This document shows positions 9,949-64,000 of a stretch of DNA of 64,000 nucleotides, one piece after another; position 1 is the first letter of the stretch, and each line of letters starts with the position of its first letter. The notes under the pieces are model-generated. The model was not told the DNA's origin. It did no database searches and worked only from the letters and a program-made list of their open reading frames with translations. The position numbers were made by a program, and so were the translations under genes. The stretch comes from Arenicola marina (Eukaryota > Annelida > Polychaeta > Arenicolidae): the NCBI GenBank assembly GCA_964019135.1, contig OZ025249.1, positions 2,542,001 to 2,606,000 on the forward strand, written 5' to 3'.

Positions 9949-12900
9949 GTCAGTCCACACACATACAATATTCATATAGCTATTCGGTTTGAAAAATGAA
10001 CCGAAATAATACATTGTGAACATATTTTGTAATATAACGGCTGCAGCGTGTTGACGGCGTTATCGGAAATGTAATAAATGGCCGACCTTTACGGATAATT
10101 GTGTTCATATCAAACTATTTATTCGAGATTTGTGGTGGTCTCAGCGGCACAGTGTAACCAGTAGTACCGTGTTCCGCCGCAGGGGGCGCTCAGTCACACC
10201 GATCACTTCGAGCGTGAGTCCATCTCATTCGAATGGATCGCGCCCGCAGCCGCTGAAGGTCACATTCAATTCAGGTAGGTCACGTGGGTGTTTTGAAGCA
10301 ATCATTCTGGAACTGCAGTTGTGGATTGATAATATTGAGCTTAGCTTCGGAGAGGGAAATTGGTTACATGACAGTGTTGCATGACAGTGTTATGTATATA
10401 GTCGAACACGTTTACCACTGGAGCCAACGGCGACAACATAACTTTCTTCAATATCACCGACTGACGGTGAGCCAGTTTCAGTTTCCTTAACCTCTATGAG
10501 AGATAAAATTGAATAGAAGCATCATGGCGACAACGGGCAAATTTGGAAACGTGTCAACAATCAGGCAAACAAGTGTAACTGTTCGAGGGTTGTGAGGGAA
10601 TAATAAAATGGACCAGGCAGGGATTGTCACTTTTTGGAGTTTATTCTTAAAGTAAGCATTACAGGATTACAACCGTATATGACCAGTTGATACAAACTAT
10701 AATACCGTTAGTAAACACATAGCCATCAGCTTTCTGGTATTATAAATTAAGCCATTGCTCGACACATATTACCAGCTCCTATATCAGCAGGCAAGCACTT
10801 TATGTGACACTATAACTTGACATTTACTACAACCTTATAGTTATAGGGATAAACAAACTATTCATAATTCATGGCACCACGTACGTGAGACTACTGTCTA
10901 GACATTTGACAACCACGGGTGTCCACTATTGATGAATCTGCTTTCGCACCAGAACTGGCTTTAAAAGTAGAGCACATTAAACGCCTTTAAACCAATTGCT
11001 ACTGAAAGACATACAGACGGGAAAATAAGCGTACCTAAAAGAAAGCAGGGCCTCCGCAACAGTTCTTCCATAGCTGGGTCACAGTGGGACACAGGGGATG
11101 CGATCCACCTTCCATAGCTGGGTCACAGTGGGACGCAGGGGATGTGATCTACCTTCCATAGCTGGGTCACAGTGGGACACAGGGGATGCGATCCACCTTC
11201 CATAGCTTGGTCACAGTGGGACGCAGTGGATGCGATCTACCTTCCATAGCTGGGTCACAGTGGCACGCAGGGAATGCGATCTACCTTCCATAGCTGGGTC
11301 ACAGTGGGACGCAGGGGATGCGATCCACCTTCCATAGCTGGGTCACAGTGGCACGCAGTGGATGCGATCCACCTTCCATAGCTGGGTCACAGTTGCACGC
11401 AGAAGATGCGATCCACCTTCCATAGCTGGGTCACAGTGGGACGCAGGAGATGTGATCTACCTTCCATTGCTGGGTCACAGTGGGACACAGGAGATGCGAT
11501 CCACCTTCCATAGCTGGGTCACAGTGGGACGCAGGGGATGTGATCTACCTTCCATAGCTGGGTCACAGTGGGACACAGGGAATGCGATCCACCTTCCATA
11601 GCTGGGTCACAGTGGGACGCAGGGGATGTGATCTACCTTCCATAGCTGGGTCACAGTGGGACACAGGGGATGCGATCCACCTTCCATAGCTGGGTCACAG
11701 TGGGACGCAGGGGATGTCATCTACCTTCCATAGCTGGGTCACAGTGGGACACAGGGGATTCGATCCACCTTCCATAGCTGGGTCACAGTGAGACGCAGGG
11801 GATGTGATCTACCTTCCATAGCTGGGTCACAGTGGGACACAGGGGATGCGATCCACCTTCCATAGCTGGGTCACAGTGGGACGCAGGGGATGTGATCTAC
11901 CTTCCATAGCTGGGTCACAGTGGGACACAGGGGATGCGATCCACCTTCCATAGCTGGGTCACAGTGGGACGCAAGGAATGCGATCCACCTTCCATAGCTG
12001 GGTCACAGTGGGACGCAGGGAATGCGATCCACCTTCCATAGCTGGGTCACAGTGGCACGCAGGGGATGCGATCCACCTTCCATAGCTGGGTCACAGTGGG
12101 ACGCAGGGAATGCGATCCACCTTCCATAGCTGGGTCACAGTGGGACGCAGGGGATGCGATCCACCTTCCATAGCTGGGTCACAGTGGGACGCAAGGAATG
12201 CGATCCACCTTCCATAGCTGGGTCACAGTGGGACGCAGGGAATGCGATCCACCTTCCATAGCTGGGTCACAGTGGCACGCAGGGGATGCGATCCACCTTC
12301 CATAGCTGGGTCACAGTGGGACGCAGGGAATGCGATCCACCTTCCATAGCTGGGTCACAGTGGGACGCAGGGGATTCGATCCACCTTCCATAGCTGGGTC
12401 ACAGTGGGACGCAGGGAATGCGATCCACCTTACATAGCTGGGTCACAGTGGGACGCAGGGAATGCGATCCACCTTCCATAGCTGGGTCACAGTGGGACAC
12501 AGGGGATGCGATCCACCTTCCATAGCTGGGTCACAGTGGGACGCAGGGGATGCGATCCACCTTCCATAGCTGGGTCACAGTGGGACGCAGTGGATGCGAT
12601 CCACCTTCCATTGCTGGGTCACAGTGGGACACAGGAAATGCGATCCACCTTCCATAGCTGGGTCACAGTGGGGCGCAGGGGATGCAATCCACCTTCCATA
12701 GCTGGGTCACAGTGGCACGCAGGGGATGCTATCTAGCTTCCATAGCTGGGTCACAGTGGGACGCAGTGGATGCGATCCACCTTCTATAGCTGGGTCACAG
12801 TGGGACGCAGTGGATGCGATCTACCTTCCATAGCTGGGTCACAGTGGGACGCAGGGGATGCGATCCACCTTCCATAGCTGGGTCACAGTGGGACGCAGTG

Positions 12901-45900: not shown

Positions 45901-48900
45901 CAGGGGGCTGACAGTGTCATGGAGTGCGTGAACGATGGCGTCACCGTGACAGCCCTTATGTCCTACAACGAGGGACGCAATAACCAAGAGAACAAGGTGA
46001 GGTGTAATCAATCGCTATAACTCAAACAATTGTTGCGAGTGGTATCTATTATGATTTCAGCTGTTGCCTCATGGACTGTGCTTTGTGACATACTTACCGT
46101 AAGAAATCCGATACAGCAGCGATATATAACAGCCGGCGAGTGTCTGACACATGTGTTTGTCATCGTTGTGATATAGTGTTAACAGCCGGCGAGTGTCTGA
46201 CACATGTGTTTGTCATCGTTGTGATATAGTGTTAACAGCCGGCGAGTGTCTGACACATGTGTTTGTCATCGTTGTGATATAGTGTTAACAGCCGGCGAGT
46301 GTCTGACACATGTGTTTGTCATCGTTGTGATATAGTGTTAACAGCCGGCGAGTGTCTGACACATGTGTTTGTCATCGTTGTGATATAGTGTTAACAGCCG
46401 GCGAGTGTCTGACACATGTGTTTGTCATCGTTGTGATATAGTGTTAACAGCCGGCGAGTGTCTGACACATGTGTTTGTCATCGTTGTGATATAGTGTTAA
46501 CAGCCGGCGAGTGTCTGACACATGTGTTTGTCATCGTTGTGATATAGTGTTAACAGCCGGCGAGTGTCTGACACATGTGTTTGTCATCGTTGTGATATAG
46601 TGTTAACAGCCGGCGAGTGTCTGACACATGTGTTTGTCATCGTTGTGATATAGTGTTAACAGCCGGCGAGTGTCTGACACATGTGTTTGTCGTCGTTTTG
46701 ATATAATTTTAGCAGCTAGCGAGTGTCTGACACATGTGTTTGTCGTCGTTGTGGTTGGTAGGTTTGTCTGATACGATGTGTGTACAGTTTTTATCCTGAT
46801 TTGGCGAGATCGTGTCTGATTTTCTAACTGTCAGAGTCGTTCCGGGAGGCTGCGTAAAACAACCTGTACTAATATATAATATAGATAGTGTTCATCCGAC
46901 TCAATTGCATTGTTCCGGGATGTATTTTGGCTTAACTTTAGCCTTCAATTGTACAACACGGTGTGTTGATTGTATATTTAAGACGCTTTAACCACTTTTG
47001 GTCATATCGCGTCAATGGAAGAAGGAAGTTAGAGTAGAGCCATGTCCCGGGTGTAACCCCCTACTCTTTGCGAAGAAAAACATGGGATCTTTATGCTGCT
47101 ACCACACAGACAGGGCCACAGCAGAGCTCGAACCATCGATCCACGTGCCGTTAGGCTTTCAGATGACCAGCGCACTCAATGCGAGCGCTCTTGCCCACTG
47201 ACCTATCGAGCCGGCACCTGTACAAAACGGACGCTTCGGTAAAAAATTGTCGCATCAAAAGACAAATGAAGACATATATATATCTATATCTCCCAAGTTG
47301 CTTTGAACTCACGTTAATCCATCGCACCTGGCAACCTACACACAATTCATTGCTGTTTCCGGTTCCAGTTTACCGACGGTATAAGTAACGTCACCGGAAG
47401 TGTCGTCAACGGGAGGATCACGTGCAGCTTCAGGCGAATGACGTCAGTCGCTGGAAACAGCAAGATTTTCTCCCTTGACACTGACTATTACCTGCTCGTA
47501 GCTCTGGGGGCGATCTCAGGTGGTAAGTGGTGTCACCATGGTTACGGATGGGCCTACCTGGCTGCTGAGTCTGTCTGGAAAGTATAATATAGGAGCTTGT
47601 CCTGGGCTTTATCCTGGGCTATAAAGCTGGAGACCTATCATGCAATATATGATAAGACAATATATTATTTTTGGTCCAGAATAAATTTTCAGTCATAAAA
47701 ATCAGTCATAAAATTTCGAATGTGTTAGTGAGCATGGAAGTTTTGTATTATTAAAATCAAGCGTGTTTGTATCTTAGAGTTCTTCTTCTAGTAACCAATA
47801 TGTATGAAATGTCTTCAGGAGGAGTCAAGAAACTACGCAGAAAAGAACTTTTCGCACTTGGCGACTAACGTGAAAACAGTGCTTGGCAATTATAGACTGT
47901 GTGTATGTGTATTATCCTCGCTAAGATTATCATGTAAGTTCCCAGTATACTGCAATCTAGAAGTAATACCGTCTTACTTACTTCTCGTTTAGAGAACAAA
48001 CAGCTGCACACGACCAGACTGTCGTCCGCCAGCAAATACCGCCTGACTAAGGCCTCGACCGGCGGGGGCGGCGCGGCGACAGGCTCCGGGTACGGACTGG
48101 TCCAGGCGCACGGTGAGTGGACTGCGGGATACAGACCCAGGGTACGGACTGGTCCAGGCGCACGGTGAGTGGACTGGGGGAGACAGACCCAGGGTACGGA
48201 CTGGTCCAGGCGCACGGTGAGTGGACTGGGAGAGACAGACTCAGGGTACGGACTGGTCCAGGCGCACGGTGAGTGGACTGGGAGAGACAGACTCAGGGTA
48301 CGGACTGGTCCAGGCGCACGGTGAGTGGACTGGGGGAGACAGACCCAGGGTACGCACTGGTCCAGGCGCACGGTGAGTGGACTGGGAGAGACAGACGCAG
48401 GGTACGGACTAGTCTAGGCGCACGGTGTGTACTGGGGGAGACAGACCCAGGTTACGGACTGGTCCAGGCGCACGGTGAGTGGACTGGGAGAGACAGACCC
48501 AGGGTACGCACTGGTCCAGGCGCACGGTGCGTGGACTGGGAGAGACAGACGCAGGGTACGGACTAGTCTAGGCGCACGGTGAGTGGACTGGGGGAGACAG
48601 ACCCAGGGTACGGACTGGTCCAGGCGCACGGTGAGTGGACTGGGAGAGACAGACGCAGGGTACGGACTGGTCCAGGCGCACGGTGCGTGGACTGGGGGAG
48701 ACAGACCCAGGGTACGGACTGGTCCAGGCGCACGGTGAGTGGACTGGGGGAGACAGACCCAGGGTACGGACTGGTCCAGGCGCACGGTGAGTGGACTGGG
48801 GGAGACAGACCCAGGGTACGGACTGGTCCAGGCGCACGGTGAGTGGACTGGGGGAGACAGACCCAAGTTACGGACTGGTCCAGGCGCACGGTGAGTGGAC

Positions 48901-51900
48901 TGTGGGAGACAGACCCAGGGTACGGACTGGTCCAGGCGCACGGTGAGTGGACTGGGAGAGACAGACTCTGGGTACGGACTGGTCCAGGCGCACGGTGAGT
49001 GGACTGGGAGAGACAGACCCAGGGTACGGACTGGCCCAGGCGCACGGTGAGTGGACTGGGGGAGACAGACTCAGGGTACGGACCGGTCCAGGCGCACGGT
49101 GAGTGGACTGGGAGAGACAGACGCAGGGTACGGACTAGTCTAGGCGCACGGTGAGTGTACTGGGGGAGACAGACCCAGGTTACGGACTGGTCCAGGCGCA
49201 CGGTGAGTGGACTGGGAGAGACAGGCTCAGGGTACGGACTGGGCCAGGCGCACGGTGAGTGGACTGGGAGAGACAGACCCAGGGTACGCACTGGTCCAGG
49301 CGCACGGTGAGTGGACTGGGAGAGACAGACGCAGGGTACGGACTAGTCTAGGCGCACGGTGAGTGGACTGGGGGAGACAGACCCCGGGTACGGGCTGGTC
49401 CAGGCGCACGGTGAGTGGACTTGGGGAGACAGACCCAGGTTACGGACTGGTCCAGGCGCACGGTGAGTGGACTGTGGGAGACAGACCCAGGGTACGGACT
49501 GGTCCAGGCGCACGGTGAGTGGACTGGGAGAGACAGACTCTGGGTACGGACTGGTCCAGGCGCACGGTGAGTGGACTGGGAGAGACAGACCCAGGGTACG
49601 GACTGGTCCAGGCGCACGGTGAGTGGACTGGGGGAGACAGACCCAGGGTACGGACTGGTCCAGGCGCACAGTGAGTGGACTGGGGGAGACAGACCCAGGG
49701 TACGGATTGGTCCAGGCGCACAGTGAGTGGACTGGGGGAGACAGACCCAGGGTACGGATTGGTCCAGGCGCACAGTGAGTGGACTGGGGGAGACAGACCC
49801 AGGGTACGGATTGGTCCAGGCGCACAGTGAGTGGACTGGGAGATACAGACTCTGGGTACGGACTGGTCCAGGCGCACGATGAGTGGACTGGGGGAGACAG
49901 ACCCAGGGTACGGACTGGTCCAGGCGCACAGTGAGTGGACTGGGGGAGACAGACCCAGGGTACGGACTGGTCCAGGCGCACAGTGAGTGGACTGGGGGAG
50001 ACAGACCCAGGGTACGGACTGGTCCAGGCGCACAGTGAGTAGACTTAGGGTCAATGTGTCTAGAACGTTTTGCCCTGTGAGCCGCTGTGAAGTGTATTTT
50101 GTGTTTAAACCAATGAGACCTACTTTCTTTATTCTATTGTCATGTGACATTGACCTTGTCATCAACATTGACCTTGACGTTGACCTTGCAGCCATCTTGA
50201 TGGTGGCCGCCTGGCTGCTGACTGGCTGTCTGGGGATGATGATGGCGCGCTACTACAAGCAGGGCTGGCCGGACAAGACCATGTGCGGCACCAAAGTCTG
50301 GTTCAATGTGAGTCCCCGAGTCCTGCAGTGTGTGCAATAAGTCTGGTTCAATGTGAGTCCCCGAGTCCTGCACTGTGTGCAATAAGTCTGGTTCAATGTG
50401 AGTCCCCGAGTCCCACAGCGTGTGCAATAAGTCTGGTTCAATGTGAGTCCCCGAGTCCTGCAGTGTGTGCAATAAGTCTGGTTCAATGTGAGTCCCCGAG
50501 TCCTGCAGTGTGTGCAATAAGTCTGGTTCAATGTGAGTCCCCGAGTCCTGCAGTGTGTGCAATAAGTCTGGTTCAATGTGAGTCCCCGAGTCCCGCAGTG
50601 TGTGCAATAAGTCTGGTTCAATGTGAGTCCCCGAGTCCTGCAGTGTGTGCAATAAGTCTGGTTCAATGTGAGTCCCCGAGTCCTGCAGTGTGTGCAATAA
50701 GTCTGGTTCAATGTGAGTCCCCGAGTCCCGCAGTGTGTGCAATAAGTCTGGTTCAATGTGAGTCCCCGAGTCCCGCAGTGTGTGCAATAAGTCTGGTTCA
50801 ATGTGAGTCCCCGAGTCCTGCAGTGTGTGCAATAAGTCTGGTTCAATGTGAGTTCCCGAGTCCTGCAGTGTGTGCAATAAGTCTGGTTCAATGTGAGTCC
50901 CCGGGTCCTGGAGTGTGAGCAATAAGTCGGGTTTAATGTGAATCCCCAAGTCCTGTAATGTGTGCAATAAGTCTGGTTCAATGTGAGTTCCCGAGTCCTG
51001 CAGTGTGTGCAATAAGTCTGGTTCAATGTGAGTCCCCAAGTCCTGTAATGTGTGCAATAAGTCTGGTTTAATGTGAGTTCCCAAGTGCTGTAATGTGTGC
51101 AATAAGTCTGGTTCGATGTGAGTCCCCGAGTCCTGCAGTGTGTGCAATAAATCTGGTTCATTGTGAGTCCCCGAGTCCTGCAGTGTATGCAATAAGTCTA
51201 GTTCAATGTGAACCTACAGTGTGGTCCTGCAGTGTGTGCAACTGTTTGTATACATAGTTTATTACCTTGTACTCTATGATGTCCCAGCCTACAGTGTATT
51301 AACTGTGCACTCTATGATGTCCCTACTTACAGTGTATTCACTGAGCACTCTATGATGTCCCAGCCTACAGTGTATGAACTGAGCACTCTATGATGTCCCA
51401 GCCTACAGTGTATGAACTGAGCACTCTATGATGTCCCAGCCTACAGTGTATGAACTGAGCACTCTATGATGTCCCAGCCTACAGTGTATGAACTGAGCAC
51501 TCTATGATGTCCCAGCCTACAGTGTATGAACTGAGCACTCTATGATGTCCCAGCCTACAGTGTATGAACTGAGCACTCTATGATGTCCCAGCCTACAGTG
51601 TATTAACTGTGCACTCTATGATGTTCCAGCCTACAGTGTATTAACTGAGCATTCTATGATGTCCTGTTGATGTTCCTGTTGCTTCCAGGTCCATCGAGTG
51701 CTGATGATTCTCACCCTCTTCCTGACTCTGGCTGGCTTCATCGTCATCTTTATCCATGTCAAGGGCTACAGTGGGGTAAGTGGTGGGCGGGACTGTAGGG
51801 TAAGTGGTGGGGTGGGACTGTGGGGTAAGTGGTGGGGGTGACTGTGGGGTAAGTGGTGGGGGTGACTGTGGGGTAAGTGGTGAGGGGTGACTGTGGGGTA

Positions 51901-54900
51901 AGCGGTGAAGGGTGACAGTGGGGTAAGTGGTGGGCCTGACTGTGGGGTAAGTGGTGGGCGGGACTGTGGGGTAAGTGGTGGGCGGGACTGTGGGGTAAGT
52001 GGTGGGGGTGACTGTGGGGTAAGTGGTGGGGGGTGAAGGTGGGGTAAGTGGTGGGCGGGACTGTGGGGTAAGTGGTGAGGGTGACTGTGGGGTAAGTGGT
52101 GGGGGGGACTGTGGGGTAAGTGGTGGGGGTGAAGGTGGGGTAAGTGGTGGGCGGGACTGTGGGGTAAGTGGTGGGGGTGACTGTGGGGCAAATGGTGGGG
52201 GGGACTGTGGGGTAAGTGGTAAGGGGGACAGTGGGGTAAGTGGTGGGGGTGACTGTGGGGTAAGTGGTGAGGGTGACTGTGGGGTAAGTGGTGGGGGGTG
52301 ACTGTGGGGTAAGTGGTGGGGGGTGACAGTGGGGTAAGTGGTGGGCGGGACTGTGGGGTAAGTGGTGGGGGGGACTGTGGGGTAAGTGGTGGGGGGGGAC
52401 TGTGGGGTAAGTGGTGGGGGTGACTGTGGGGTAAGTGGTGGGGGGTGACTGTGGGGTAAGTGGTGGGGGGGTGACTGTGGGGTAAGTGGTGGGGGTGACT
52501 GTGGGGTAAGTGGTGGGGGGGACTGTGGGGTAAGTGGTGGGGGTGACAGTGTGGTCAGTGGTGGGGGTGACTGTGGGGTAAGTGTTGGGCGGGACTGTGG
52601 GGTAAGTGGTGGGGGTGACAGTGTGGTTAGTGGTGGGCGGGACTGTGGGGTAAGTGGTGGGGGTGACAGTGTGGTCAGTGGTGGGAGTGACTGTGGGGTA
52701 AGTGGTGGGGGTGACAGTGTGGTCAGTGGTGGGGGTGACTGTGGGTTAAGTGGTAAGGGGTGACAGTGTGGTAAGTGGTGAGGGGTGAAGGTGGGGTAAG
52801 TGGTGGGGGATGACAGTGGGGTAAGTGGTGGGGGTGACAGTGTGGTCAGTGGTGGGGGTGACTGTGGGGTAAGTGGTAAGGGGTGACAGTGTGGTAAGTG
52901 GTGAGGGGTGACAGTGTGGTAAGTGGTGAGGGGTGACAGTGTGGTAAGTGGTGAGGGGTGACAGTGTGGTAAGTGGTGAGGGGTGACAGTGGGGTAAGTG
53001 GTGGCGGTGAAGGTGGGGTAAGTGGTGGGGGTGACAGTGGGGTAAGTGGTGGGCCTGACTGTGGGGTAAGTGGTGGGCGGGACTGTGGGGTAAGTGGTGG
53101 GGGGTGAAGGTGGGGTAAGTGGTGGGGGATGACAGTGGGGTAAGTGGTGGGCCTGACTGTGGGGTAAGTAGTGGGCGTGACTGTGGGGTAAGTGGTGAGG
53201 GTGATAGTGGGGTAAGTAGTGGGCGTGACTGTGGGGTAAGTGGTGGGGGTGACAGTGGGTAAGTGGTGGGGTGTGACTGTGGGGTAAGTGGCGAGAGTGA
53301 CAGTGGTGTAAGTGGTGGGCGTGACTGTTGGGTAAGTGGTGAGAGTGACAGTTGGGTAAGTGGTGGGGGTGATAGTGGGGTAAGTGGTGGGGTGTGACTG
53401 TGGGGTAAGTGGTGGGGATGGCTGTGGGGCAAGTGGTGGGGGTGACAATAGGGTAAGTGGTGGGGGGTGAAATAGGTGTAAGTGGTGGGGGGTGAGAGTG
53501 GGGCAGGTGGGGGTGACAATGGGGTAAGTGGTGAGGGTGACAGTGGGGTAAGTGGTAGGGTGTGACAGTGGGGTAAGTGGTGGCGGTGACAATGGGGTAA
53601 GTGGTGAGGGTGACAGTGGGCTAAGTGGTAGGGGTGACTGTGGGGTAAGCGGTGAGGGGTGACAGTGGGGTAAGTGGTGGGGGGTAAAAGTGGGGCAAGT
53701 GGTGAGGGTTGACAGTGAGGTAAGTGATAGGGGTGACAGTGGGGTAAGCGGTGGGAGGTGAAAGTGGGGTAAGTGGTGAGGGTTGAAAAGTAGGGTAAGC
53801 GGTGGGAGTGACAGTGGGGTAAGTGGTGGAGGTGATAGTGGGGCAAGTTGTGGAGCGTGACTGTGGTGTAAGTGATGGGGGGTGACAGTGAGGTAAGCGA
53901 TGGGGGGTGACTGTGGGGCAAGTATTAGAGGATGACAGTGAGGTAAGTGATTAGGGGTGTCAGTGGGGTAAGCGGTGGGGGTGACTGGGGTATGTGGTGG
54001 TGGGTGACTGTAGGGTAAGTGGTAGGGGGTGACAGTGGGGTAAGTATTGGAGGGTGACAGTGGGGTAAGTGATGGGGGTTGACAGTGGGGTAAGCGTTGG
54101 GGGTGACAGTGGGGTAAGTGATTGGGGGTGTCATTGGGGTAAGCGGTGGGGGTGACTGAGGTATGTGGTGGTGGGTGACTGTAGGGTAAGTGGTGGGGGG
54201 TGACAGTGGGGTAAGTGATTGGGGGTGTCATTGGGGTAAGCGGTGGGGGTGACTGAGGTATGTGGTGGTGGGTGACTGTAGGGTAAGTGGTGGGGGGTGA
54301 CAGTGGGGTAAGTGATTGGGGGTGTCATTGGGGTAAGCGGTGGGGGTGACTGAGGTATGTGGTGGTGGGTGACTGTAGGGTAAGTGGTAGGGGGTGACAG
54401 TGGGGCAAGTATTGGAGGGTGACAGTGGGGTAAGTGATGGGGGTTGACAGTGGGGTAAGCGTTGGGGGTGACAGTGGGGTAAGCGTTGGGGGTGACAGTG
54501 GGGTATGTGGTGGTGGGTGACTGTGGGGTAAGTGGTGAGGGGTGACAGAGGGGTAAGTGTTGGGGGGTGACAGTTGGGTAACTCATATAGGGTGACTCTG
54601 GGGTAAGTGATGGGGGGTGAAAGTGTTGTAAGTGGTCGGGGGTGCCTGTGGGGCAAGTTTTAGAGCGAGACTGTCGGAAAAATGAGGGGGGGTGACAGTG
54701 GGGTATGCGGTGGGGTGTTAAGAGGTGATAGTGGGTTTCACCACGACATGGACTACAGGCAGGTGGAGAGGGATCAAGGGGTAGTTGGGGTCTCAGGCGG
54801 GGAGAGGGGGCAGTAGGTGATGGGGCGTCAAGGGGTAGTTGGGGTCTCAGGCGGGGAGAGGGGGCAGTAGGTGATGGGGCGTCAAGGGGTAGTTGGGGTC

Positions 54901-57900: not shown

Positions 57901-60900
57901 CGTCAAGGGGTAGTTGGGGTCTCAGGCGGGGAGTGGGGGCAGTAGGTGATGGGGCGTCATGGGGTAGTTGGGGTCTCAGGCGGGGAGAGGGGGCAGTAGG
58001 TGATGGGGCGTCAACGGGTAGTTGGGGTCTCAGGCGGGGAGAGGGGGCAGTAGGTGATGGGGCGTCAAGGGGTAGTTGGGGTCTCAGGCGGGGAGTGGGA
58101 GCAGTAGGTGATGGGGCGTCAAGGGGTAGTTGGGGTCTCTGGTGGGCAGAGGGTCCAGTAGGTGATGGGGCGTCAACGGGTAATGGGTTAGGCATCACAT
58201 CATACGTGATCACGTCACGTGACCATGCCAGGTCTCAATGGGGTAACCTATACCTGACTCTATTTGTTCCCCCCCCCCCCAGCACTTGGAAGGGTTCCTA
58301 GCCGCCCACCCTCCGCTTGGCATCGTGGTCACAGCCTTGGTCATCATCAATGTAAGTCCCTTCATGGTTAACATTGACACAGCCTTGGTCATCATCAATG
58401 TAAGTCCCTTCACGTTTAACATTGACACAGCCTTGGTCATCATCAATGTAAGTCCCTCCATGTTTAACATTGACACAGCCTTGGTCATCATCAATGTAAG
58501 TCCCTTCATGGTTAACATTGACACAGCCTTGGTCATCATCAATGTAAGTTCTTTCATGTTTAACATTAACACAGCCTTGGTCTTCATCAATGTAAGTCTC
58601 TTCATGTCTAACATTCACACAGCCTTGGTCATCATCAATGTAAGTCCCTCCATGTTTAACATGTAAGTCCCTTCATGTTTAACATTGACACAGCCTTGGT
58701 CATCATCAATGTAAGTCCCATCATGTTTAACATTGACACAGCTTTGGTCATCATCAATGTAAGTCCCCTCATGTGTAACATTGACACAGCCTTGGTCATC
58801 ATCAATGTAAGTCTCTTCATGTTTAACATTGACACAGCCTTGGTCATCATCAATGTAAGTCCCTTCATGTTTAACATTGACACAGCCTTGGTCATCATCA
58901 ATGTAAGTCCCTTCACGTTTAACATTGACACAGCCTTTGTCATCATCAATGTAAGTCCCTTCATGTTTAACATTGACACCGCCTTGGTCATCATCAATGT
59001 AAGCCTCTTCATGTTTAACATTGACACAGCCTTGGTCATCATCAATGTAAGTCCCTTCATGGTTAACATTGACACAGCCTTGGTCATCATCAATGTAAGT
59101 CCCTTCATGTTTAACATCGACACAACCTTGGTCATCATCATTGTAAGTCTCTTCATGTTTAACATTGACACAGCCTTGGTCATCATCAATGTAAGTCCCT
59201 CCATGTTTAACACGTAAGTCCCTTCATGTTTAACATTGACACAGCCTTGGTCATCATCAATGTAAGTCCCTTCATGTTTAACATTGACACAGCCTTGGTC
59301 ATCATCAGTGTAAGTCCCTTCATGTTTAACATTGACACAGCCTTGGTCACCATCAATGTAAGTCCCTTCATGTTTAACATTGACACAGCCTTTGTCATCA
59401 TCAATGTAAGTCCCTTCATGTTTAACATTGACACAGCCTTGGTCACCATCAATGTAAGTCCCTTCATGTTTAACATTGACACAGCCTTGGTCATCATTAA
59501 TGTAAGTCCCTTCATGTTTAACATTGACACAGCCTTGGTCATCATCAATGTAAGTCCCTTCATGTTTAACATTGACACAGCCTTGGTCATCATCAATGTA
59601 AGTCTCTTCATGTGTAACATTGACACAGTCTTGGTCATCATCAATGTAAGTCCCTTCACGTTTAACATTGACACAGCCTTGGTCACCATCAATGTAAGTC
59701 CCTTCATGTTTAACATTGACACAGCCTTGGTCATCATCAATGTAAGTCCCTTCATGTTTAACATTGACACAGCCTTGGTCATCATCAGTGTAAGTCCCTT
59801 CATGTTTAACATTGACACAGCCTTGGTCATCATCAATGTAAGTCCCTTCATGTTTAACATTGACACAGCCTTGGTCATCATCAGTGTAAGTCCCTTCATG
59901 TTTAACATTGACACAGCCTTGGTCATCATCAATGTAAGTCCCTTCATGTTTAACATTGACACAGCCTTGGTCATCATCAATGTAAGTCCCTTCACGTTTA
60001 ACATTGACACAGCCTTGGTCACCATCAATGTAAGTCCCTTCATGTTTAACATTGACACAGCCTTGGTCACCATCAATGTAAGTCCCTTCATGTTTAACAT
60101 TGACACAGCCTTGGTCATCATCAATGTAAGTCCCTTCATGTTTAACATTGACACAGCCTTGGTCATCATCAATGTAAGTCCCTTCATGTTTAACATTGAC
60201 ACAGCCTTGGTCATCATCAATGTAAGTCCCTTCATGTTTAACATTGACACAGCCTTGGTCATCATCAGTGTAAGTCCCTTCATGTTTAACATTGACACAG
60301 CCTTGGTCATCATCAATGTAAGTCCCCTCATGTTTAACATTGACACAGCCTTGGTCATCATCAATGTAAGTCCCTTGATGTTTAACTTTGACACAGCCTT
60401 GGTCATCATCAATGTCAGTCCCTTCATGTTTAACATTGACACAGCCTTAGTCATCATCAATGTAAGTACCTTCATGTTTAACATTGACACAGCTTTGGTC
60501 ATCATCAATGTAAGTCCCTCCATGTTTAACATGTAAGTCCCTTCATGTTTAACATTGACACAGCCTTGGTCATCATCAATGTAAGTCTCTTCATGTTTAA
60601 CATTGACACAGCCTTGGTCATTATCAATGTAAGTCCCTTCATGTTTAACATTGACACAGCCTTGGTCATCATCAATGTAAGTCCCTTCATGTTTAACATT
60701 GACACAGCCTTGGTCATCATCAATGTAAGTCCCTTCATGTTTAACATTGACACAGCCTTGGTAATCATCAATGTAAGTCCGTTCCTGTTTAACATTGACA
60801 CAGCCTTGGTCATCATCAATGTAAGTCTCTTCATGTTTAACATTGACACAGCCTTGGTCATCATCAATGTAAGTGTCTTCATGTTTAACATTGACACAGC

Positions 60901-61698
60901 ATTGGTCATCATCAATGTAAGTCCGTTCCTGTTTAACATTGACACAGCCTTGGTCACCATCAATGTAAGTCTTTTTCATGTTTAACATTGACACAGCCTT
61001 GGTTATTATCAATGCAAGTCCCTTCGTGGTTAACATTGACACAGCTTTGGTCATCATCAATGTAAGTCCCTGCATGTTTAACATTGACACAGCCTTGGTC
61101 ATCATCAATGTAAGTCCCTCCATGTTTAACACGTAAGTCCCTTCATGTTTAACATTGACACAGCCTTGGTCATCATCAATGTAAGTCCCTTCATGTTTAA
61201 CATTGACACAGCCTTGGTCATCATCAATGTAAGTCCCTCCATGTTTAACATTGACACAGCCTTGGTCATCATCAATGTAAGCCCCTTCATGTTTAACATT
61301 GACACAGCCTTGGTCATCATCAATGTAAGTCCCTTCATGCTTAACATTGACACAGCCTTGGTCATCATCAATGTAAGTCCCTTCATGTTTAACATTGACA
61401 CAGCCTTGGTCATCATCAATGCAAGTTAACCTTTCAGTGACGTACATAACTGTTGCAAACAACTGTCATAAACAATCCCTGAATCACTTTAGTGTGAATA
61501 AGTCTCGATTTATTAATGAATACTGAACCAAATCTAGTACTGACGAAAATAGACTATTGCTGGCAATGAATATTGAATTATGAGTGATAATCCTTCAGCC
61601 CATCATGGCGGCTTTCCGGCCACATCCGGGCACTTCAAAGAGGACCATGTTTAACTGGGCGCATTGGGCAGTGGCGAACCTCGCTCTCATACTGGCCG
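9821..61698 (+). CDS. FRRS1: Multi-DOMON ferric-chelate reductase 1-like gene (Reeler - 6x DOMON - cytochrome b561), partial at both ends, 31 exons
   Basis: The spliced reading frame runs from a Reeler domain through six DOMON domains into a cytochrome b561/ferric-reductase transmembrane domain. This order is known for FRRS1 (SDR2), a membrane protein thought to pass electrons through b-type hemes to reduce ferric iron; DOMON domains of this family sit outside the membrane core. Visible hallmarks are the Reeler block GREFEGFMVQAR, the DOMON signature GYVAVGLSTDQSM followed by GTDSVMEC in every repeat, and four histidines in b561 positions (QAHG, VHRVL, AAHPPLG, NWAHW). Intron phases fit at every junction: 0, 2, 0, then 0-0-1-0 for each A-D cassette, then 1, 0, 0, 0, 1. 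Signal peptide, Reeler start, last helices and stop codon are outside the window. Vertebrate FRRS1 has one DOMON, so orthology is inferred from architecture; the symbol names the family. Exon coordinates are listed separately. Confidence 0.85.
10183..10274 (+). CDS. FRRS1: Reeler domain exon 2
   Basis: The acceptor is CCGCCGCAG|GGGGCG and the donor CAG|GTAGGT. In phase 0 it encodes GALSHTDHFERESISFEW then IAPAAEGHIQF, the typical second half of a Reeler domain (ALTHT...FEW.AP...G...F). It ends two bases into an Arg codon that the next exon completes (phase 2). A longer frame overlapping it (10130-10384) is a shadow. Confidence 0.88.
10275..11064 (+). other. Unique intron sequence
   Basis: AT-richer, non-repetitive intron between the donor at 10275 and the 44-bp array. 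I see no exon, RNA gene or element with recognisable ends. Confidence 0.7.
11065..15542. repeat. 44-bp minisatellite (about 102 copies), intronic
   Basis: The 44-bp unit has cores CTTCCATAGCTGGGTCACAG and GGGATGCGATCCAC. Variation is mostly single substitutions (GGGAC/GGCAC, GGGGA/GTGGA/GGGAA). Higher-order structure is visible: the blocks at 14853-15065 and 15117-15329 are the same over six units (offset 264 bp), and a block near 14140-14540 recurs from about 14700. Nothing in the unit resembles the neighbouring exon end or donor. Confidence 0.97.
15543..16279 (+). other. Unique spacer between two intronic minisatellites
   Basis: About 740 bp of non-repetitive DNA. Short ORFs occur on both strands (for example 15627-15839 minus) but have no splice context or recognisable domain. 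I cannot assign a function. Confidence 0.6.
16280..28223. repeat. 50-bp minisatellite (about 240 copies), intronic
   Basis: The 50-bp unit is built from AATGACGGGTATAGCGGGGA, AGAGGGCCGCCCC and TAGCTAGCTGGG. Two main subtypes alternate irregularly, one beginning CCGCC and one TAGCC. Some units are shortened by dropping the TAGCTAGCTGGG part, joining GGGCCGCC straight to AATGACG (for example near 17868, 19007, 21062, 24836). The TAGCTAGCT core and its CCCAGCTAGCTGGG variant are palindromic. Multi-unit blocks recur, marked by the rare form AATAACGAGAATAGCGGGG near 18930, 19310, 21512, 24757, 24919, 25319, 25701 and 26201. Confidence 0.97.
28405..28507 (+). CDS. FRRS1: Reeler domain exon 3 and linker to the DOMON repeats
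   Basis: The acceptor is GGCTTTGTAG|GGCGAC and the donor CACAG|GTCAGT. The first base completes the Arg codon split by the 18-kb intron, giving RATVVEVEADFWVDVKSP, the last Reeler strands, then a Pro/Ser-rich linker ending SENSPSQ. It ends in phase 0, as DOMON exon A requires. The fit of phase and family motif across such a long repeat-filled intron makes this assignment firm. Confidence 0.87.
28425..28785 (+). repeat. Threefold repeat of Reeler exon 3' end plus donor (about 157-bp unit)
   Basis: The 3' part of exon 28405-28507 with its GTCAGT donor and following G-rich intron is repeated. Copy 1 is the real exon end; copy 2 starts near 28583 and has a donor at 28666; copy 3 starts near 28738 and breaks off around 28785. 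Copies 2 and 3 have no acceptor and carry substitutions. The donor spacing is 158 bp, out of frame, and read-through meets TAG within about 20 codons. A poly-G run lies at about 28538-28550. Confidence 0.85.
28786..29635. repeat. AGAGAC/AGAGAT/AGAGGT-type simple repeat
   Basis: Degenerate purine-rich hexanucleotide repeat, with almost all purines on the plus strand and pyrimidines on the minus strand. The minus-strand ORFs rich in Ser/Leu (29103-29594, 29281-29787) are artefacts of this composition. Confidence 0.93.
29636..30064 (+). other. Unique AT-rich intron sequence
   Basis: No exon is seen. From about 29815 to 30020 a loose, degenerate motif of the TGTTCTA / AATGTTCTA kind recurs. Nothing else is recognisable. 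Confidence 0.6.
30065..30116 (+). pseudogene. Relic fragment of DOMON exon A
   Basis: About 50 bp matching the start of DOMON exon A (core AGCGCCGCGGGTTGC, then ACCGGTTGCCAAGGCGACG). It is fused directly to the GATTGATATT intron sequence that normally precedes exon A. It has no acceptor or donor of its own. It resembles exon A of cassettes 2-5 more than that of cassette 1, and looks like a duplication breakpoint or the stub of a lost cassette. Confidence 0.8.
30194..30373 (+). CDS. FRRS1: DOMON 1, exon A
   Basis: The acceptor is TTTCCTGCTAG|GAC and the donor ATG|GTATGT; 60 codons, phase 0 at both ends. It starts DCGGAGGCFMHPTGCQGGAC, the four-cysteine entry of FRRS1-type DOMON domains, and runs to GYVAVGLSTDQSM. 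The final Met, next to Gly in exon B, sits where DOMON proteins commonly place a heme ligand. The 5' end resembles repeat 6 (CFM.P) rather than repeats 2-5 (CVSFP). Confidence 0.92.
30504..30596 (+). CDS. FRRS1: DOMON 1, exon B
   Basis: The acceptor is TTTGTTTTCAG|GGA and the donor AAG|GTATGA; 31 codons in phase 0. It starts GTDSVMECVNDGGTV and ends HTNQENK. Joined to exon A it rebuilds the family signature S.D..MG.D.V..C. Confidence 0.92.
30893..31046 (+). CDS. FRRS1: DOMON 1, exon C (GC donor)
   Basis: The acceptor is CGTTCCAG|TTTACC. It encodes FTEGISDVTGSVVNGTITC, then SFRRM and LDTAYYLLVALGDYSE, with one base left over (phase 1). The donor is GAGG|GCAAGT, a GC-AG intron, at exactly the position where repeat 6 has GTAAGT. 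Without splicing the frame reads Gly-Lys-stop. Confidence 0.87.
31047..32815 (+). other. C-D intron of cassette 1 (and homologues)
   Basis: About 1.77 kb, with no exon I can support. The same intron recurs at 34137-35905, 37227-38996, 40318-42086 and 43408-45098. It contains a short TAACTG repeat and TGACCTTGA repeats (32460-32585 in this copy; partly deleted in cassette 5) and an open frame with splice-like borders at 32103-32254, discussed under findings. Confidence 0.75.
32816..32910 (+). CDS. FRRS1: DOMON 1, exon D
   Basis: The acceptor is ATCTTCCAG|GGAGAAAGC and the donor TCG|GTAAGT. Two bases complete the Gly split after exon C, then come 31 codons: RKQRHVTRLSSAQQFRLTEV and a Gly-rich tail ending GGTS. 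It aligns with exon D of repeat 6 (NKQLHTTRLSSASKYRLTKA), which shows it is a real exon. The shared His is a candidate second heme ligand. Phase 0 out leads to the next exon A. Confidence 0.87.
32911..33283 (+). other. D-A intron between cassettes
   Basis: 373-bp intron linking one DOMON cassette to the next; it recurs after each exon D up to 45566. It ends in the conserved segment GATTGATATTAATCTTACGG and the acceptor CCTGCTAG. No other feature is seen. Confidence 0.8.
33284..33463 (+). CDS. FRRS1: DOMON 2, exon A
   Basis: Same borders as in repeat 1 (CCCTGCTAG|GAC, ATG|GTATGT). It starts DCGSAAGCVSFPTGCQGDAC, the form shared by repeats 2-5, and keeps the terminal QSM. Confidence 0.92.
33594..33686 (+). 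CDS. FRRS1: DOMON 2, exon B
   Basis: Protein is identical to exon B of repeat 1; acceptor TTTTCAG|GGA, donor AAG|GTATGA, 31 codons, phase 0. Confidence 0.92.
33983..34136 (+). CDS. FRRS1: DOMON 2, exon C (GC donor)
   Basis: Identical to exon C of repeat 1, including the GAGG|GCAAGT donor; phase 0 in, phase 1 out. Confidence 0.87.
35906..36000 (+). CDS. FRRS1: DOMON 2, exon D
   Basis: Identical to exon D of repeat 1; acceptor TTCCAG, donor TCG|GTAAGT; keeps the QRH histidine. Confidence 0.87.
36374..36553 (+). CDS. FRRS1: DOMON 3, exon A
   Basis: Same sequence and borders as exon A of repeat 2; 60 codons, phase 0. Confidence 0.92.
36684..36776 (+). CDS. FRRS1: DOMON 3, exon B
   Basis: Same as exon B of repeat 2; 31 codons, phase 0. 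Confidence 0.92.
37073..37226 (+). CDS. FRRS1: DOMON 3, exon C (GC donor)
   Basis: Encodes the same protein as repeats 1-2. The donor context is GAAG|GCAAGT, closer to the usual GC-AG consensus than the GAGG form. The acceptor tract has a C-to-G change (TTTCGCGTTCCAG). Confidence 0.87.
38997..39091 (+). CDS. FRRS1: DOMON 3, exon D
   Basis: Identical to exon D of repeats 1-2. One inserted A in the preceding intron (near 37810) shifts the spacing by 1 bp relative to the first two units. Confidence 0.87.
39465..39644 (+). CDS. FRRS1: DOMON 4, exon A
   Basis: Same sequence and borders as exon A of repeat 2; phase 0 at both ends. Confidence 0.92.
39775..39867 (+). CDS. FRRS1: DOMON 4, exon B
   Basis: Same as exon B of repeat 2. 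Confidence 0.92.
40164..40317 (+). CDS. FRRS1: DOMON 4, exon C (GC donor)
   Basis: Same protein as the other repeats, with the GAAG|GCAAGT donor as in repeats 3 and 5, although the following intron is of the type found in repeats 1 and 2. This is a mosaic. Confidence 0.87.
42087..42181 (+). CDS. FRRS1: DOMON 4, exon D
   Basis: As in repeat 1 except for one A-to-G change that turns SAQQFRL into SAQRFRL. It is the only coding difference I see among exons D of repeats 1-5. Confidence 0.87.
42555..42734 (+). CDS. FRRS1: DOMON 5, exon A
   Basis: Same sequence and borders as exon A of repeat 2. Confidence 0.92.
42865..42957 (+). CDS. FRRS1: DOMON 5, exon B
   Basis: Same as exon B of repeat 2. 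Confidence 0.92.
43254..43407 (+). CDS. FRRS1: DOMON 5, exon C (GC donor)
   Basis: Same protein as the other repeats, donor GAAG|GCAAGT. The following intron is the most diverged of the five. Confidence 0.87.
45099..45193 (+). CDS. FRRS1: DOMON 5, exon D
   Basis: Same protein as repeat 1. The spacing to exon C is shortened by a deletion of about 78 bp near 44825. Donor TCG|GTAAGT, phase 0, leading into the diverged repeat 6. Confidence 0.87.
45567..45773 (+). CDS. FRRS1: DOMON 6, exon A (longer, diverged)
   Basis: The acceptor is CCCTGCTAG and the donor ATG|GTATGT; 69 codons, nine more than the other copies because of a basic insert (FTSGRKRRQT) after TPEG. It starts DCGGAAGCFMDPSGCQGDAC and ends in the same GLSTDQSM. 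The divergence suggests this is the older, membrane-proximal DOMON from which the others derive. Confidence 0.92.
45904..45996 (+). CDS. FRRS1: DOMON 6, exon B
   Basis: The acceptor is GTTTCCAG|GGG and the donor AAG|GTGAGG. It encodes GADSVMECVNDGVTVTALMS and ends NNQENK, several residues different from repeats 1-5; 31 codons, phase 0. Confidence 0.91.
46129..46765. repeat. 53-bp minisatellite (about 11 near-perfect copies)
   Basis: The 53-bp unit contains ACAGCCGGCGAGTGTCTGAC and TGTTTGTCATCGTTGTG. Eleven copies are almost identical; the last (from about 46690) is degenerate (TCGTCGTTTTG, GCTAGCGAG). It lies in the B-C intron of DOMON 6 and is absent from the other cassettes. Confidence 0.95.
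46985..47218 (-). mobile_element. tRNA-derived SINE (minus strand)
   Basis: Read on the minus strand, the head from about 47218 resembles a tRNA: an A-box-like TAGGTCAGTGGGCAAGAGC (47187-47205) and a B-box-like GGTTCGAGC (47126-47134), about 60 bases apart. A non-tRNA body follows to about 46985. The cloverleaf is not clean, so I call it a SINE, not a functional tRNA. The far end is uncertain. It is found only in this intron. Confidence 0.6.
47369..47522 (+). CDS. FRRS1: DOMON 6, exon C (GT donor)
   Basis: The acceptor is CGGTTCCAG|TTTACC. It encodes FTDGISNVTGSVVNGRITC and ends LLVALGAISG, phase 1 out. The donor GGTG|GTAAGT aligns base for base with the GCAAGT of the other five copies, so those are substitutions at the same splice site. 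Confidence 0.91.
47523..47992 (+). other. C-D intron of DOMON 6
   Basis: 470 bp, much shorter than the 1.7-kb counterparts in cassettes 1-5 and largely unrelated to them. No repeat or exon is seen. Confidence 0.75.
47993..48112 (+). CDS. FRRS1: DOMON 6 exon D, joined to the start of cytochrome b561
   Basis: The acceptor is TTCTCGTTTAG|AG and the donor CACG|GTGAGT. After completing a split Glu it reads NKQLHTTRLSSASKYRLTKA, a Gly/Ala-rich linker, then GYGLVQAHG. The last His-Gly is the first conserved heme-ligand position of the b561 domain. It leaves in phase 1, unlike exons D of repeats 1-5 (phase 0), because it continues into the membrane domain. Confidence 0.92.
48088..50040 (+). repeat. 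52-bp donor-site minisatellite (about 38 copies)
   Basis: Each 52-bp unit carries the last 25 bases of the preceding exon unchanged (from GGGTACGGACTGG to GGCGCACG), the donor GTGAGT, and 21 bases of intron. Donors recur from 48113 to about 50035. From about 49669 on, many copies have A instead of G just before the donor (GCACAGTGAGT). The unit is not a multiple of three, and read-through hits TGA in the second unit. Confidence 0.96.
50192..50307 (+). CDS. FRRS1: Cytochrome b561 exon, helix 1-2 region
   Basis: The acceptor is GACCTTGCAG and the donor AAT|GTGAGT. It encodes ILMVAAWLLTGCLGMMMAR, a membrane helix, followed by YYKQGWPDKTMCGTKVWFN. The ARYYK...W...WF pattern is typical of the b561 domain of FRRS1-like proteins. 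Phase 1 in, phase 0 out. Confidence 0.94.
50294..51212 (+). repeat. 45-bp donor-site minisatellite (about 20 copies)
   Basis: The unit repeats the exon's final 14 bases (AAGTCTGGTTCAAT), the donor GTGAGT, and 25 further intron bases including CCCCGAGTCCTGCAG. The first donor is 50308, the second 50353. The unit is 15 codons long, but in the exon frame every unit contains TAA (CAATAAG). Confidence 0.96.
51270..51662. repeat. 38-bp minisatellite (about 10 copies)
   Basis: The 38-bp unit contains CCTACAGTGTATGAACTGAG and CACTCTATGATGTCCCAG. It lies in the same intron downstream of the 45-bp array and just before the acceptor of the next exon. It has no donor-like core. Confidence 0.95.
51689..51775 (+). 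CDS. FRRS1: Cytochrome b561 exon, second conserved histidine
   Basis: The acceptor is GTTGCTTCCAG and the donor GGG|GTAAGT; 29 codons, phase 0. VHRVLMILTLFLTLAGFIVI is a membrane helix, with VHR carrying the second conserved heme-ligand His, followed by FIHVKGYSG. Confidence 0.94.
51768..54712 (+). repeat. 24-bp donor-site minisatellite (about 120 copies)
   Basis: The basic unit is 24 bp (23-27): ACAGTGGG of the exon end plus GTAAGTGGTGGGGGTG. The first donors are at 51776 and 51800 (in frame), then length changes break the frame. From about 53,940 a higher-order block of roughly 95-170 bp with GGTATGTGGTGGTGGGTGAC recurs. Strongly G-rich on the plus strand. Confidence 0.95.
54774..58181. 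repeat. 54-bp minisatellite (about 63 copies)
   Basis: The 54-bp unit contains TAGTTGGGGTCTCAGGCGGG, GAGAGGGGGCAGTAG and GTGATGGGGCGTCAA. It shares the G-rich character of the preceding array and lies in the same intron. The unit is 18 codons, which produces a long Gly/Arg-rich false ORF. It has no obvious copy of the exon end; CAGTAGGTGATGG is only loosely donor-like. Confidence 0.95.
58283..58351 (+). CDS. FRRS1: Cytochrome b561 exon, third conserved histidine
   Basis: The acceptor is a 12-base C run followed by AG, and the donor is AAT|GTAAGT; 23 codons, phase 0. HLEGFLAAHPPLGIVV then TALVIIN: the AAHPPLG histidine is the third conserved b561 ligand position and the rest starts the next helix. 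The frame remains open into the following array up to 58666. Confidence 0.93.
58330..61432 (+). repeat. 48-bp donor-site minisatellite (about 64 copies), in frame with its exon
   Basis: Each unit holds the last 22 bases of the exon (ending GGTCATCATCAAT), the donor GTAAGT and 20 bases of intron (CCCTTCATGTTTAACATTGA). Donors at 58352, 58400, 58448, 58496, 58544, 58592 and 58640 are all in the exon's frame, with no stop before 58666. A shortened unit of about 23 bp recurs near 58640, 59195, 60513 and 61113 and ends the open frame each time. The last units have GCAAGT. Confidence 0.96.
61599..61698 (+). CDS. FRRS1: Cytochrome b561 exon, fourth conserved histidine (last exon in window)
   Basis: The acceptor is TGATAATCCTTCAG and the donor GCCG|GTAAGT; 33 codons plus one base (phase 1). 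PIMAAFRPHPGTSKR then TMFNWAHWAVANLALILAG: NWAHW carries the fourth conserved His, and the tail begins a helix whose end should be in the next exon, to the right of the window. Confidence 0.93.
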
Positions 61699-64000
61699 GT
61701 AAGTGTGTCTACCACCTGGCCCTCATACTGGCCGGTAAGTGTGTCTACCACCTGGCCCTCATACTGGCCGGTAAGTGTGTCTACCATCTGGCCCTCATAC
61801 TGGCCGGTAAGTGTTTCTACCATCTGGCCCTCATACTGGCCGATCAGTGTATCTACCACCTGGCCCTCATACTGGCCGGTAAGTGTTTCTACCACCTGGC
61901 CCCCATACTGGCCGGTAAGTTTATCTACCACCGGCCCTCATACTGGCCGGTAAGTGTGTCTACCACCTGGCCCTCATACTGGCCGGTAAGTGTATCTACC
62001 ACCTGGCCCTCATACTGGCCGGTAAGTGTGTCTACCACCTGGCCCCCATACTGGCCGGTAAGTGCGTCTACCACCTAGCCCTCGTACTGGCCGGTAAGTG
62101 TGTCTACCACCTGGCCCTCATACTGGCCGGTAAGTGTGTCTACCACCTGGCCCCCATACTTGGCGGTAAGTGTGTTTACCACCTGGCCCTCATACTGGCC
62201 AGTAAGTGTATCTACCACCTGGCCCTCACACTGGCCGGTAAGTGTATCTACCACCTGGCCCTCATACTGGCCGGTAATTGTGTCTACCACCTGGCCCTCA
62301 TACTGGCCGGTAAGTGTGTCTACCATCTGGCCCTCATACTGGCCGGTAAGTGTTTCTACCATCTGGCCCTCATACTGGCCGATCAGTGTATCTACCACCT
62401 GGCCCTCATACTGGCCGGTAAGTGTTTCTACCATCTGGCCCTCATACTGGCCGATAAGTGTATCTACCATGGCCCTCATACTGGCCGGTAAGTGTGTCTG
62501 CCACCTGGCCCCCATACTGGCCGGTAAGTGTATCTACCACCGGCCCTCATACTGGCCGGTAAGTGTGTCTACCACCTGGCCCTCATACTGGCCGGTAAGT
62601 GTATCTATCACCTGGCCCTCATACTGGCCGGTAAGTCTGTGTACCATCTGGCCCCCATACTGGCCGGTAAGTGTGTCTACCACCGGCCCTCATACTGGCC
62701 GGTAAGTGTATCTACCACCCGGCCCCCATACTGGCCGGTAAGTGTGTCTGCCACCTGGCCCTCATGCTGGCCGGTAAGTGTGTCTACCACCGCCATCATA
62801 CTGGCCGATAAGTGTATCTACCAGCTGGCAGTCATACTGGCCGGTAAGTGTGTCTACCACCTGGCCCCCATACTGGGCGGTAAGTGTGTTTACCACCTGG
62901 CCCTCATACTGGCCGGTAAGTGTGTCTACCACCTGGCCCCCATACTGGCCGGTAAGTGTGTCTGCCACCTGGCCCCCATACTGGCCGGTAAGTTTATCTA
63001 CCACCGGCCCTCATACTGGCCGGTAAGTGTGTCTACCACCTGGCCCTCATACTGGCCGGTAAGTGTATCTACCACCTGGCCCTCATACTGGCCGGTAGGT
63101 GTGTCTACCACCTGGCCCCCATACTGGCCGGTAAGTGCGTCTACCACCTAGGCCTCGTACTGGCCGGTAAATGTGTCTACCACCTGGCCCTCATACTGGC
63201 CGGTAAGTGTGTCTACCACCTGGCCCCCATACTTAGCGGTAAGTGTGTCTACCACCTGGCCCTCATACTGGCCAGTAAGTGTATCTACCACCTGGCCCTC
63301 ACACTGGCCGGTAAGTGTATCTACCACCTGGCCCTCATACTGGCCGGTAATTGTGTCTACCACCTGGCCCCCATACTGGCCGGTAAGTGTGTCTACCACC
63401 GACCCTCATACTGGCCGGTAAGTGTATCTACCACCCGGCCCCCATACTGGCCGGTAAGTGTGTCTGCCACCTGGCCCTCATACTGGCCGGTAAGTGTGTC
63501 TAACACCTGGCCCTCACACTGGCCGGTAAGTGAATCTACCACCTGGCCCCCATACTGGGCGGTAAGTGTGTCTACCACCTGGCCCTCATACTGGCCGATA
63601 AGTGTGTCTACCACCTGGCCCTCATACAGGCCGGTAAGTGTGTCTACCACCTGGCCCTCATACTGGTCGATAAGTGTGTCTACCACCGGCCGTCACACTG
63701 GCCGGTAAGTGTGTCTACCACCTGGCCCCCATACTGGGCGGGAAGTGTGTCTACCACCTGGCCCTCATACTGGCCGGTAAGTGTGTCTACCACCGGCCCT
63801 CACACTGGCCGGTAAGTGTATCTACCACCTGGCCCCCATACTGGCCGGTAAGTGCGTCTACCACCTAGCCCTCATACTGGCCGGTAAGTGTGTCTACCAC
63901 TGGCCCTCATACTGGCCGGTAAGTGTATCTGCCACCTGGCCCTCATACTGGCCGGTAAGTGTGTCTACCACCTGGCCCTCACACTGGCCGGTAAGTGTAT
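61686..64000 (+). repeat. 36-bp donor-site minisatellite (over 60 copies), runs off the window
   Basis: The unit has CTCATACTGGCCG of the exon end, the donor GTAAGTGTGTCTACCAC and CTGGCC. It differs consistently from the exon at three bases just upstream (CTGGCC against CTCGCT). The unit is 12 codons, and the exon frame is open to 62078. Donors in frame are 61699, 61735, 61771, 61807, 61879 and 61915; at 61843 GT is changed to AT. A 1-bp loss near 61930 ends the frame match. Confidence 0.96.

Follow-up and report, generated by a model that had tools for sequence, protein, structure and literature searches.

Why should five consecutive introns of one gene each open with a minisatellite that repeats the end of the preceding exon together with its 5' splice site? 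This arrangement is found in the 64,000-bp stretch of Arenicola marina DNA analyzed here (the window, located on contig C2 of an 867-Mb assembly), in a gene that we call Reeler-DOMON-cytochrome b561. Such 'mirage'-type minisatellites are best read as random short tandem duplications passed through a positional filter, a reading to which we assign a probability of roughly 0.6. Beyond what such a filter would leave, arrays are probably two- to fourfold overrepresented at donors, as judged from one gene family and without significance under the strictest null.

Five donor arrays in consecutive introns

The arrangement was found by Tandem Repeats Finder (TRF) as well as by direct reading, and agrees with what an earlier note had described from the letters of this DNA. 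Each repeat unit is composed of the 3' end of the exon, a GTGAGT or GTAAGT donor identical to the exon's own, and intron bases (Table 1). The unit lengths and the exon parts of the first four units were as given in that note; for the fifth unit TRF assigns 21 bp to the exon, while the 13 bp stated before corresponds to the stretch that is identical in the first two copies. When the five junction regions were used as BLAST queries against the window, each matched its own array alone, barring one exon common to the DOMON blocks of the same gene. The five arrays therefore arose separately, upholding the claim of unrelated units that originated independently by one rule.

Counted to the ends of the five introns, of which the fifth ends beyond the window, GTRAGT occurs 342 times in sense and once in antisense orientation, in keeping with the 'roughly 300' donors estimated before. 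The fifth array overruns the window by 3.4 kb (its end corresponds to C2:2609433). The introns from B-C to F-G consist of array to 93-98%, leaving 145, 84, 158, 172 and 377 bp, and two of the five also hold a purely intronic array without a donor. Copies within an array differ by up to about 10% on average, and in the long arrays neighbouring copies are hardly more similar than distant ones. The arrays themselves cannot be due to chance.

Homologous proteins cross the junctions B/C, C/D, D/E and E/F without a gap in three, five, six and six of six homologues, respectively. Since the homologues are continuous there, the first donor marks the predicted exon end at these junctions; after exons B to E, four of the five, homology thus points to it as the one used in splicing.

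Table 1. Positions of exons, arrays and neighbouring blocks in the window (L001, sequence beyond its end).
Feature	Position	Strand	Basis
Sixth donor-bearing array, 158-bp unit x2.3, with CCATCACAG followed by GTCAGT	28430..28784	+	TRF
Five tandem ~3.09-kb DOMON blocks, same gene	29640..47992	+	4% array coverage; internal control
Exon B, lead-in to cytochrome b561 part	47993..48112	+	Reading, BLAST, homology
Donor array 1, 52-bp unit x37.7 (25 bp exon end + GTGAGT + intron)	48088..50045	+	TRF
Exon C, cytochrome b561 part	50192..50307	+	Reading, BLAST, homology
Donor array 2, 45-bp unit x20.4 (14 bp exon end + GTGAGT)	50294..51211	+	TRF
Interior non-donor array, 38-bp unit x10.4, same intron as donor array 2	51271..51664	+	TRF
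Exon D	51689..51775	+	Reading, BLAST, homology
Donor array 3, 24-bp unit x~121 (8 bp exon end + GTAAGT)	51768..54715	+	TRF
Interior non-donor array, 54-bp unit x63	54774..58182	+	TRF
Exon E	58283..58351	+	Reading, BLAST, homology
Donor array 4, 48-bp unit x~65 (22 bp exon end + GTAAGT)	58330..61426	+	TRF
Exon F	61599..61698	+	Start from homology; end from donor and array only
Donor array 5, 36-bp unit + GTAAGT, ~160 copies in all	61678..64000, on to L001:3433	+	TRF

Donors and acceptors compared

As a sample chosen blind to repeats, 77 myosin-head exon matches were collected genome-wide (168 first-look candidates, 65 scored). Donor and acceptor positions were set automatically close to where the matches end, with a single donor set by hand, and the flank was 450 bp only for 10 of the matches and less than 1.5 kb for some others. 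Arrays were scored as straddling a junction if they had a period of at least 14 and at least two copies. The sample represents a single gene family, and the tests treat its exons as independent, which they are not.

TRF arrays straddled the donor at 12 of the 77 matches and the acceptor at four (p=0.077); with at least three copies, nine donors and three acceptors were straddled (p=0.146). Interim counts for donors and acceptors had been 8 and 1 (n=30, looser rule), 8 and 2 (n=60) and 8 and 3 (n=67), and with four acceptor-straddling arrays the impression that acceptors are spared was rejected. The 12-mer at the junction recurs in all 16 straddling cases. It also recurs, in one or two copies each, at eight other donors and four other acceptors without a straddling TRF array, some of these recurrences being perhaps due to chance or to duplicated exons. 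Two further donors were adjusted by hand in the copy profile (C4:2728577 and C11:42555024) and are straddled either way; the match at C12:10169582 has a GC donor, and its array begins about 22 bp later, so that it does not count as donor-straddling. Straddling arrays occur on eight contigs of 33-77 Mb (C1, C2, C4, C7, C9, C11, C12 and C20). A muscle-type myosin gene at L042-L043 (C4:367501-387500), with 13 matches and repeated, probably alternative exons, has an array coverage of 1%, unlike several other myosin genes. At another myosin exon, an acceptor-straddling 81-bp array of 29 copies (L045:4464-6805) forms the mirror image of the donor arrays.

The earlier note had proposed to look for an enrichment of array starts at donors, and a small version of this check was made on the 77 matches. 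Between positions -60 and +30 of the donors 19 arrays start, compared with 4.95 expected from the zone 60-900 bp downstream (3.8-fold, p=1.2e-6). This control zone includes some exons; if 25% of it is taken as unusable, 6.6 starts are expected (2.9-fold, p=6e-5), and if 50% is, 9.9 (1.9-fold, p=0.0065). In this sample array starts were thus 1.9- to 3.8-fold denser at donors than in the intron interior; against acceptors, where the mirror zone holds eight array ends, p was 0.052 (14 donor starts versus 8 acceptor ends with at least three copies, p=0.29).

A stricter null was built from 24 introns whose flanking matches were judged adjacent from model coordinates, with every array collapsed to one copy and placed at random. 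Four donor straddles were observed where 1.63 were expected (p=0.08), together with one acceptor straddle; one more array begins 3 bp inside the exon and narrowly misses the straddle rule. Therefore, short ancestral introns explain part of the pattern, and the evidence for a donor excess spans p=1e-6 under the simple test to p=0.08 under the strict one.

How far self-copies extend across the junctions was followed by the share of recurring 16-mers at equal offsets on both sides, within a 400-bp search. On the intron side of donors this share was 0.260 at 40-80 bp past the junction, then 0.232, and 0.194 in the first 20 intron bases; from the donor into the exon it fell through 0.164, 0.081 and 0.044 to 0.013. 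Upstream of acceptors it was 0.160 at 40-80 bp, 0.138 and 0.095 on nearing the exon, and 0.044, 0.013, 0.013 and 0.009 inside it. Arrays thus pass freely through donors and thin out ahead of acceptors. An earlier profile of 60 exons with a 1.2-kb search gave 0.13-0.22 across the intron and 0.187 for the 20 bases that close the exon, with no peak at the donor itself; the earlier profiles had a slightly larger minimum offset at acceptors, and the repeat with equal offsets was nearly identical.

Genome-wide, three GGTAAGT at a spacing of 24-54 bp occur at 27,787 places and the reversed motif at 12,174, and the acceptor-like word TTTCAGG at 2,167 versus 1,753 reversed. These figures count copies and not loci, with large arrays dominating the weight, and since the donor and acceptor words differ in composition each is to be compared with its own reversed control and not with the other. 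Grouped by position, the first 100 places listed for GGTAAGT represent about six arrays in the first 1.1 Mb of C1, those for the reversed motif about eight in the first 11.4 Mb, and those for the acceptor word about 18 in 77 Mb. Little was seen with a pattern used before, in which GTGAGT recurs every 16 bp (2,571 versus 1,774), the places listed being mostly GTGA-type microsatellites. Among 135 arrays examined, a donor matching at least 8 of 9 positions lies in 19 consensus units, compared with 6 when reversed and 3.1 when shuffled, a comparison overstated by duplicates, as the 19 rows come from about 14 distinct arrays (the 48-bp array in four pieces, the 36-bp and 100-bp arrays twice each) and several belong to the gene under study.

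A proposed positional filter and its alternatives

Under the preferred reading, slippage, template switching or end joining would create tandem duplications of about 20-160 bp at any place in an intron. One that happens to span a donor would be nearly neutral: the original exon end and donor are kept upstream, and such duplications would be tolerated because the first exon-donor copy stays intact and the extras fall in the intron. Crossing an acceptor, or lying inside an exon, a duplication would usually be harmful and be lost, while one across a stop codon should be tolerated by the same logic; one such case is found in this gene. The array would then grow and homogenise by unequal exchange or conversion, here to 20-160 copies that nearly fill the intron; homogenisation is suggested because neighbouring and distant copies are nearly equal in identity. 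The filter predicts that arrays are tolerated at donors and stop codons and mostly not at acceptors and in exon interiors, and all of this is seen.

Several points weigh against it. A pure filter predicts that the density of array starts at donors is at most that of the interior, while in the sample it is higher by the factor given above; the filter is therefore not the whole story. The contrasts between donors and acceptors are weak when taken alone, and the unselected sample is one family of non-independent exons. A rival that we regard as rather unlikely is a process initiated at exon/donor junctions, linked for example to transcription, RNA-DNA hybrids or the binding of splicing factors, that duplicates preferentially there. 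It would account for the density of array starts, which remains elevated even with half of the control usable, and for the surplus of GGTAAGT triplets over their reversed motif, in copies as well as in arrays per Mb among the places listed; the acceptor-like word shows a surplus of its own. In a broader form, an annelid-lineage mutational process acting genome-wide at active 5' splice sites and leaving thousands of donor minisatellites with functional-looking rows of donors, we hold it to be equally unlikely. The earlier note had argued for a junction-started process, and its observation of five donor arrays in a row stands, but such a process is unsupported or unneeded: the strict null falls short of significance, arrays are widespread in introns, arrays across acceptors and a stop codon occur, and much of the donor pattern would follow if donor-crossing duplications are harmless. 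In addition, the five units differ in base composition and, by eye, suggest no shared G-rich trigger; a trigger common to all units was not evident on reading them and was dropped. Growth polarity is likewise inconsistent across eight donor arrays. Copies diverge significantly away from the exon in three (the 45-bp and 24-bp arrays after exons C and D and a 62-bp myosin array), the 36-bp array after exon F is weakly opposite, and the 52-bp and 48-bp arrays after B and E as well as two short arrays are without a significant trend. The away-from-exon trend is shared by one of six non-junction arrays (53 bp, interior), and the 81-bp acceptor array is mirrored, its copies being most alike beside the exon. 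For polar growth from the exon the outcome is thus mixed.

Selection is unlikely to maintain the donor rows, whether as redundant or as decoy 5' splice sites that would strengthen exon recognition or hold the U1 small nuclear ribonucleoprotein along the intron. The near-absence of antisense donors in the five introns would fit, but repetition of a unit is enough to produce such a bias. In 11 of 12 arrays divergence is lower in the donor hexamer than in the remaining non-CpG part of the unit (Wilcoxon p=0.0015), yet when the hexamer is ranked against other CpG-free hexamers of the same unit the combined p is 0.18; selection on array donors is hence suggested by mean divergence and not by the rank test. 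At a match of at least 8 of 9, 116 of the 135 array units are without a donor. Unit lengths are a multiple of three in 8 of 16 donor arrays versus 36 of 112 others (p=0.13-0.17), or in 9 of 20 with the later straddling arrays of 28, 85, 122 and 42 bp, and in the four exons that were checked the reading frame closes 30, 63, 312 and 377 bp beyond the donor. Translation through downstream donors by in-frame units is thus unsupported. An artefact of assembly or annotation, with collapsed or expanded repeats or wrong exon ends, is very improbable. Copy numbers of long arrays are hard to assemble, but the divergence among copies, the occurrence of similarly built arrays at myosin genes of eight contigs, the agreement of exon ends with homologous proteins, and arrays of only 2-7 copies, short enough to be spanned by a single read, all argue against it.

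Related structures in other animals

The arrays described here, the 'mirages' of amphioxus and the 'exon stuttering' of birds are the same kind of structure. Mirages are reported in Adh3, troponin C, the globins BflGb6 and BflGb9 and PGBD5, with units of 10-72 bp in Adh3 and 150-160 bp in the globins and many copies bearing AG/GT signals, and length polymorphism and somatic instability are described (PMC3087553, PMC3902484). They occur at both 5' and 3' boundaries, and regular splicing is suggested to be undisturbed (PMC3087553). The amphioxus reports to which the earlier note refers thus do exist. As in these accounts of mirages, the tandem unit spans the exon-intron boundary including the splice signal and is of similar size, and the authentic outermost junction would be used with the array lying in the intron, here as judged by homology for exons B to E. 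The present arrays differ in their 20-160 copies, compared with 6 and 3 reported for BflGb6 haplotypes, in the series of five within one gene, and in that their frequency was counted, in one gene family, at donors and acceptors alike. They also differ in host, an annelid and not a cephalochordate, although taxon does not define a mechanism.

Amphioxus as the source of the DNA was rejected: COX1 matched Pilargis wolfi best (92%), and among the best 120 of 7999 scored candidates the next matches came mainly from other annelids, with Phyllodocida prominent. The recognised protein genes of the mitochondrial contig (15,942 bp, invertebrate code) lie on one strand, with open reading frames read by eye and nad2 not seen whole, in an order that matches the annelid ground plan.

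In avian exon stuttering, one side of an exon is expanded into the adjacent intron together with the splice donor or acceptor found there, in blocks of tens to hundreds of bases and 1-44 copies, alongside purely intronic expansions; 236 introns in 115 chicken genes are listed, 190 of the 236 on dot chromosomes, and GC-rich genes are discussed, while donors and acceptors are not counted separately in the consulted part (PMC12954441). There, as here, an exon border is the source that is copied repeatedly into the neighbouring intron. The straddling arrays in our sample lie on eight contigs of 33-77 Mb. Minisatellite arrays are also described in intron 1 of earthworm metallothionein (PMC12783039), and these are annelid intronic minisatellites as well; an exon end or donor in their unit is not stated in the consulted part of that report. 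The Rogers model, in which introns are gained through tandem duplication of AG/GT proto-splice sites (as cited in PMC3087553), shares tandem duplication with a splice signal, whereas in the present case existing introns are enlarged and no new intron is demonstrated. In a literature search at the level of titles and opening lines of abstracts, none of the papers listed named donor-bearing minisatellites in annelids.

What is added here is another animal phylum, arrays in series that exceed the globin examples in length, and the counting of donors versus acceptors; boundary minisatellites are thus not peculiar to lancelets or birds. Intron after intron, splicing must pick one of 20-160 near-identical serial donors, which turns the gene, and probably the genome, into a natural test case for the choice of the first 5' splice site. 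Comparing donors with acceptors offers a simple way to part mutation from selection in intron growth, and if the donor excess is indeed mutational, splice sites and DNA duplication would be linked in a way not known so far.

The gene and its surroundings

The upstream exons gave Pfam matches to Reeler (E=1.8e-12) and, for one block, to DOMON (E=6e-18). Six metagenome-derived proteins match the exons of the membrane part, and for two of them an assignment to PF03188 (cytochrome b561) was precomputed; a Pfam scan of these exons joined (268 aa) gave no PF03188 and a sub-threshold DOMON match only. We therefore call the gene Reeler-DOMON-cytochrome b561, the last part being assigned through its homologues, and presumably FRRS1-like, going by its domain architecture. 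The DOMON blocks are five near-identical tandem copies with one DOMON unit each, and represent a recent internal amplification of the gene.

Within these blocks, none of 21 listed splice-donor-like sites (30370-45770) falls inside a TRF array, and at the next two donors after exon F (near L001:3971 and L001:7076) downstream copies were looked for and not found. The row of five is therefore a local cluster and not a property of the whole gene, and it is set in an array-rich stretch. Array coverage is 68% in the window, 63-100% in eight 10-kb stretches that flank it, and 1-70% in eight 10-kb stretches around myosin matches. Three of the eight flanking stretches are tandem repeat throughout (100%), and the first 28 kb of the window consist mostly of very large minisatellites (1-9783, 11065-15542 and 16285-28223) with units of 29, 44 and 50 bp. 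The sixth donor-bearing array lies where a putative exon ends, ahead of the DOMON blocks; this exon is recognised by its open frame and donor only, and the array has one junction copy downstream.

The stop codon of the gene is crossed by an 83-bp array of four copies (L002:147-488), which leads from the last coding exon into the 3' untranslated region and has the same geometry as the donor arrays, the upstream copy staying intact. In a later intron, about 8 kb past the end of the window, a 51-bp array of 25 copies (L001:8089-9361) carries a minus-strand donor matching 9 of 9 positions (AAG/GTAAGT) after a short open stretch, and may mark an exon of a nested antisense gene.

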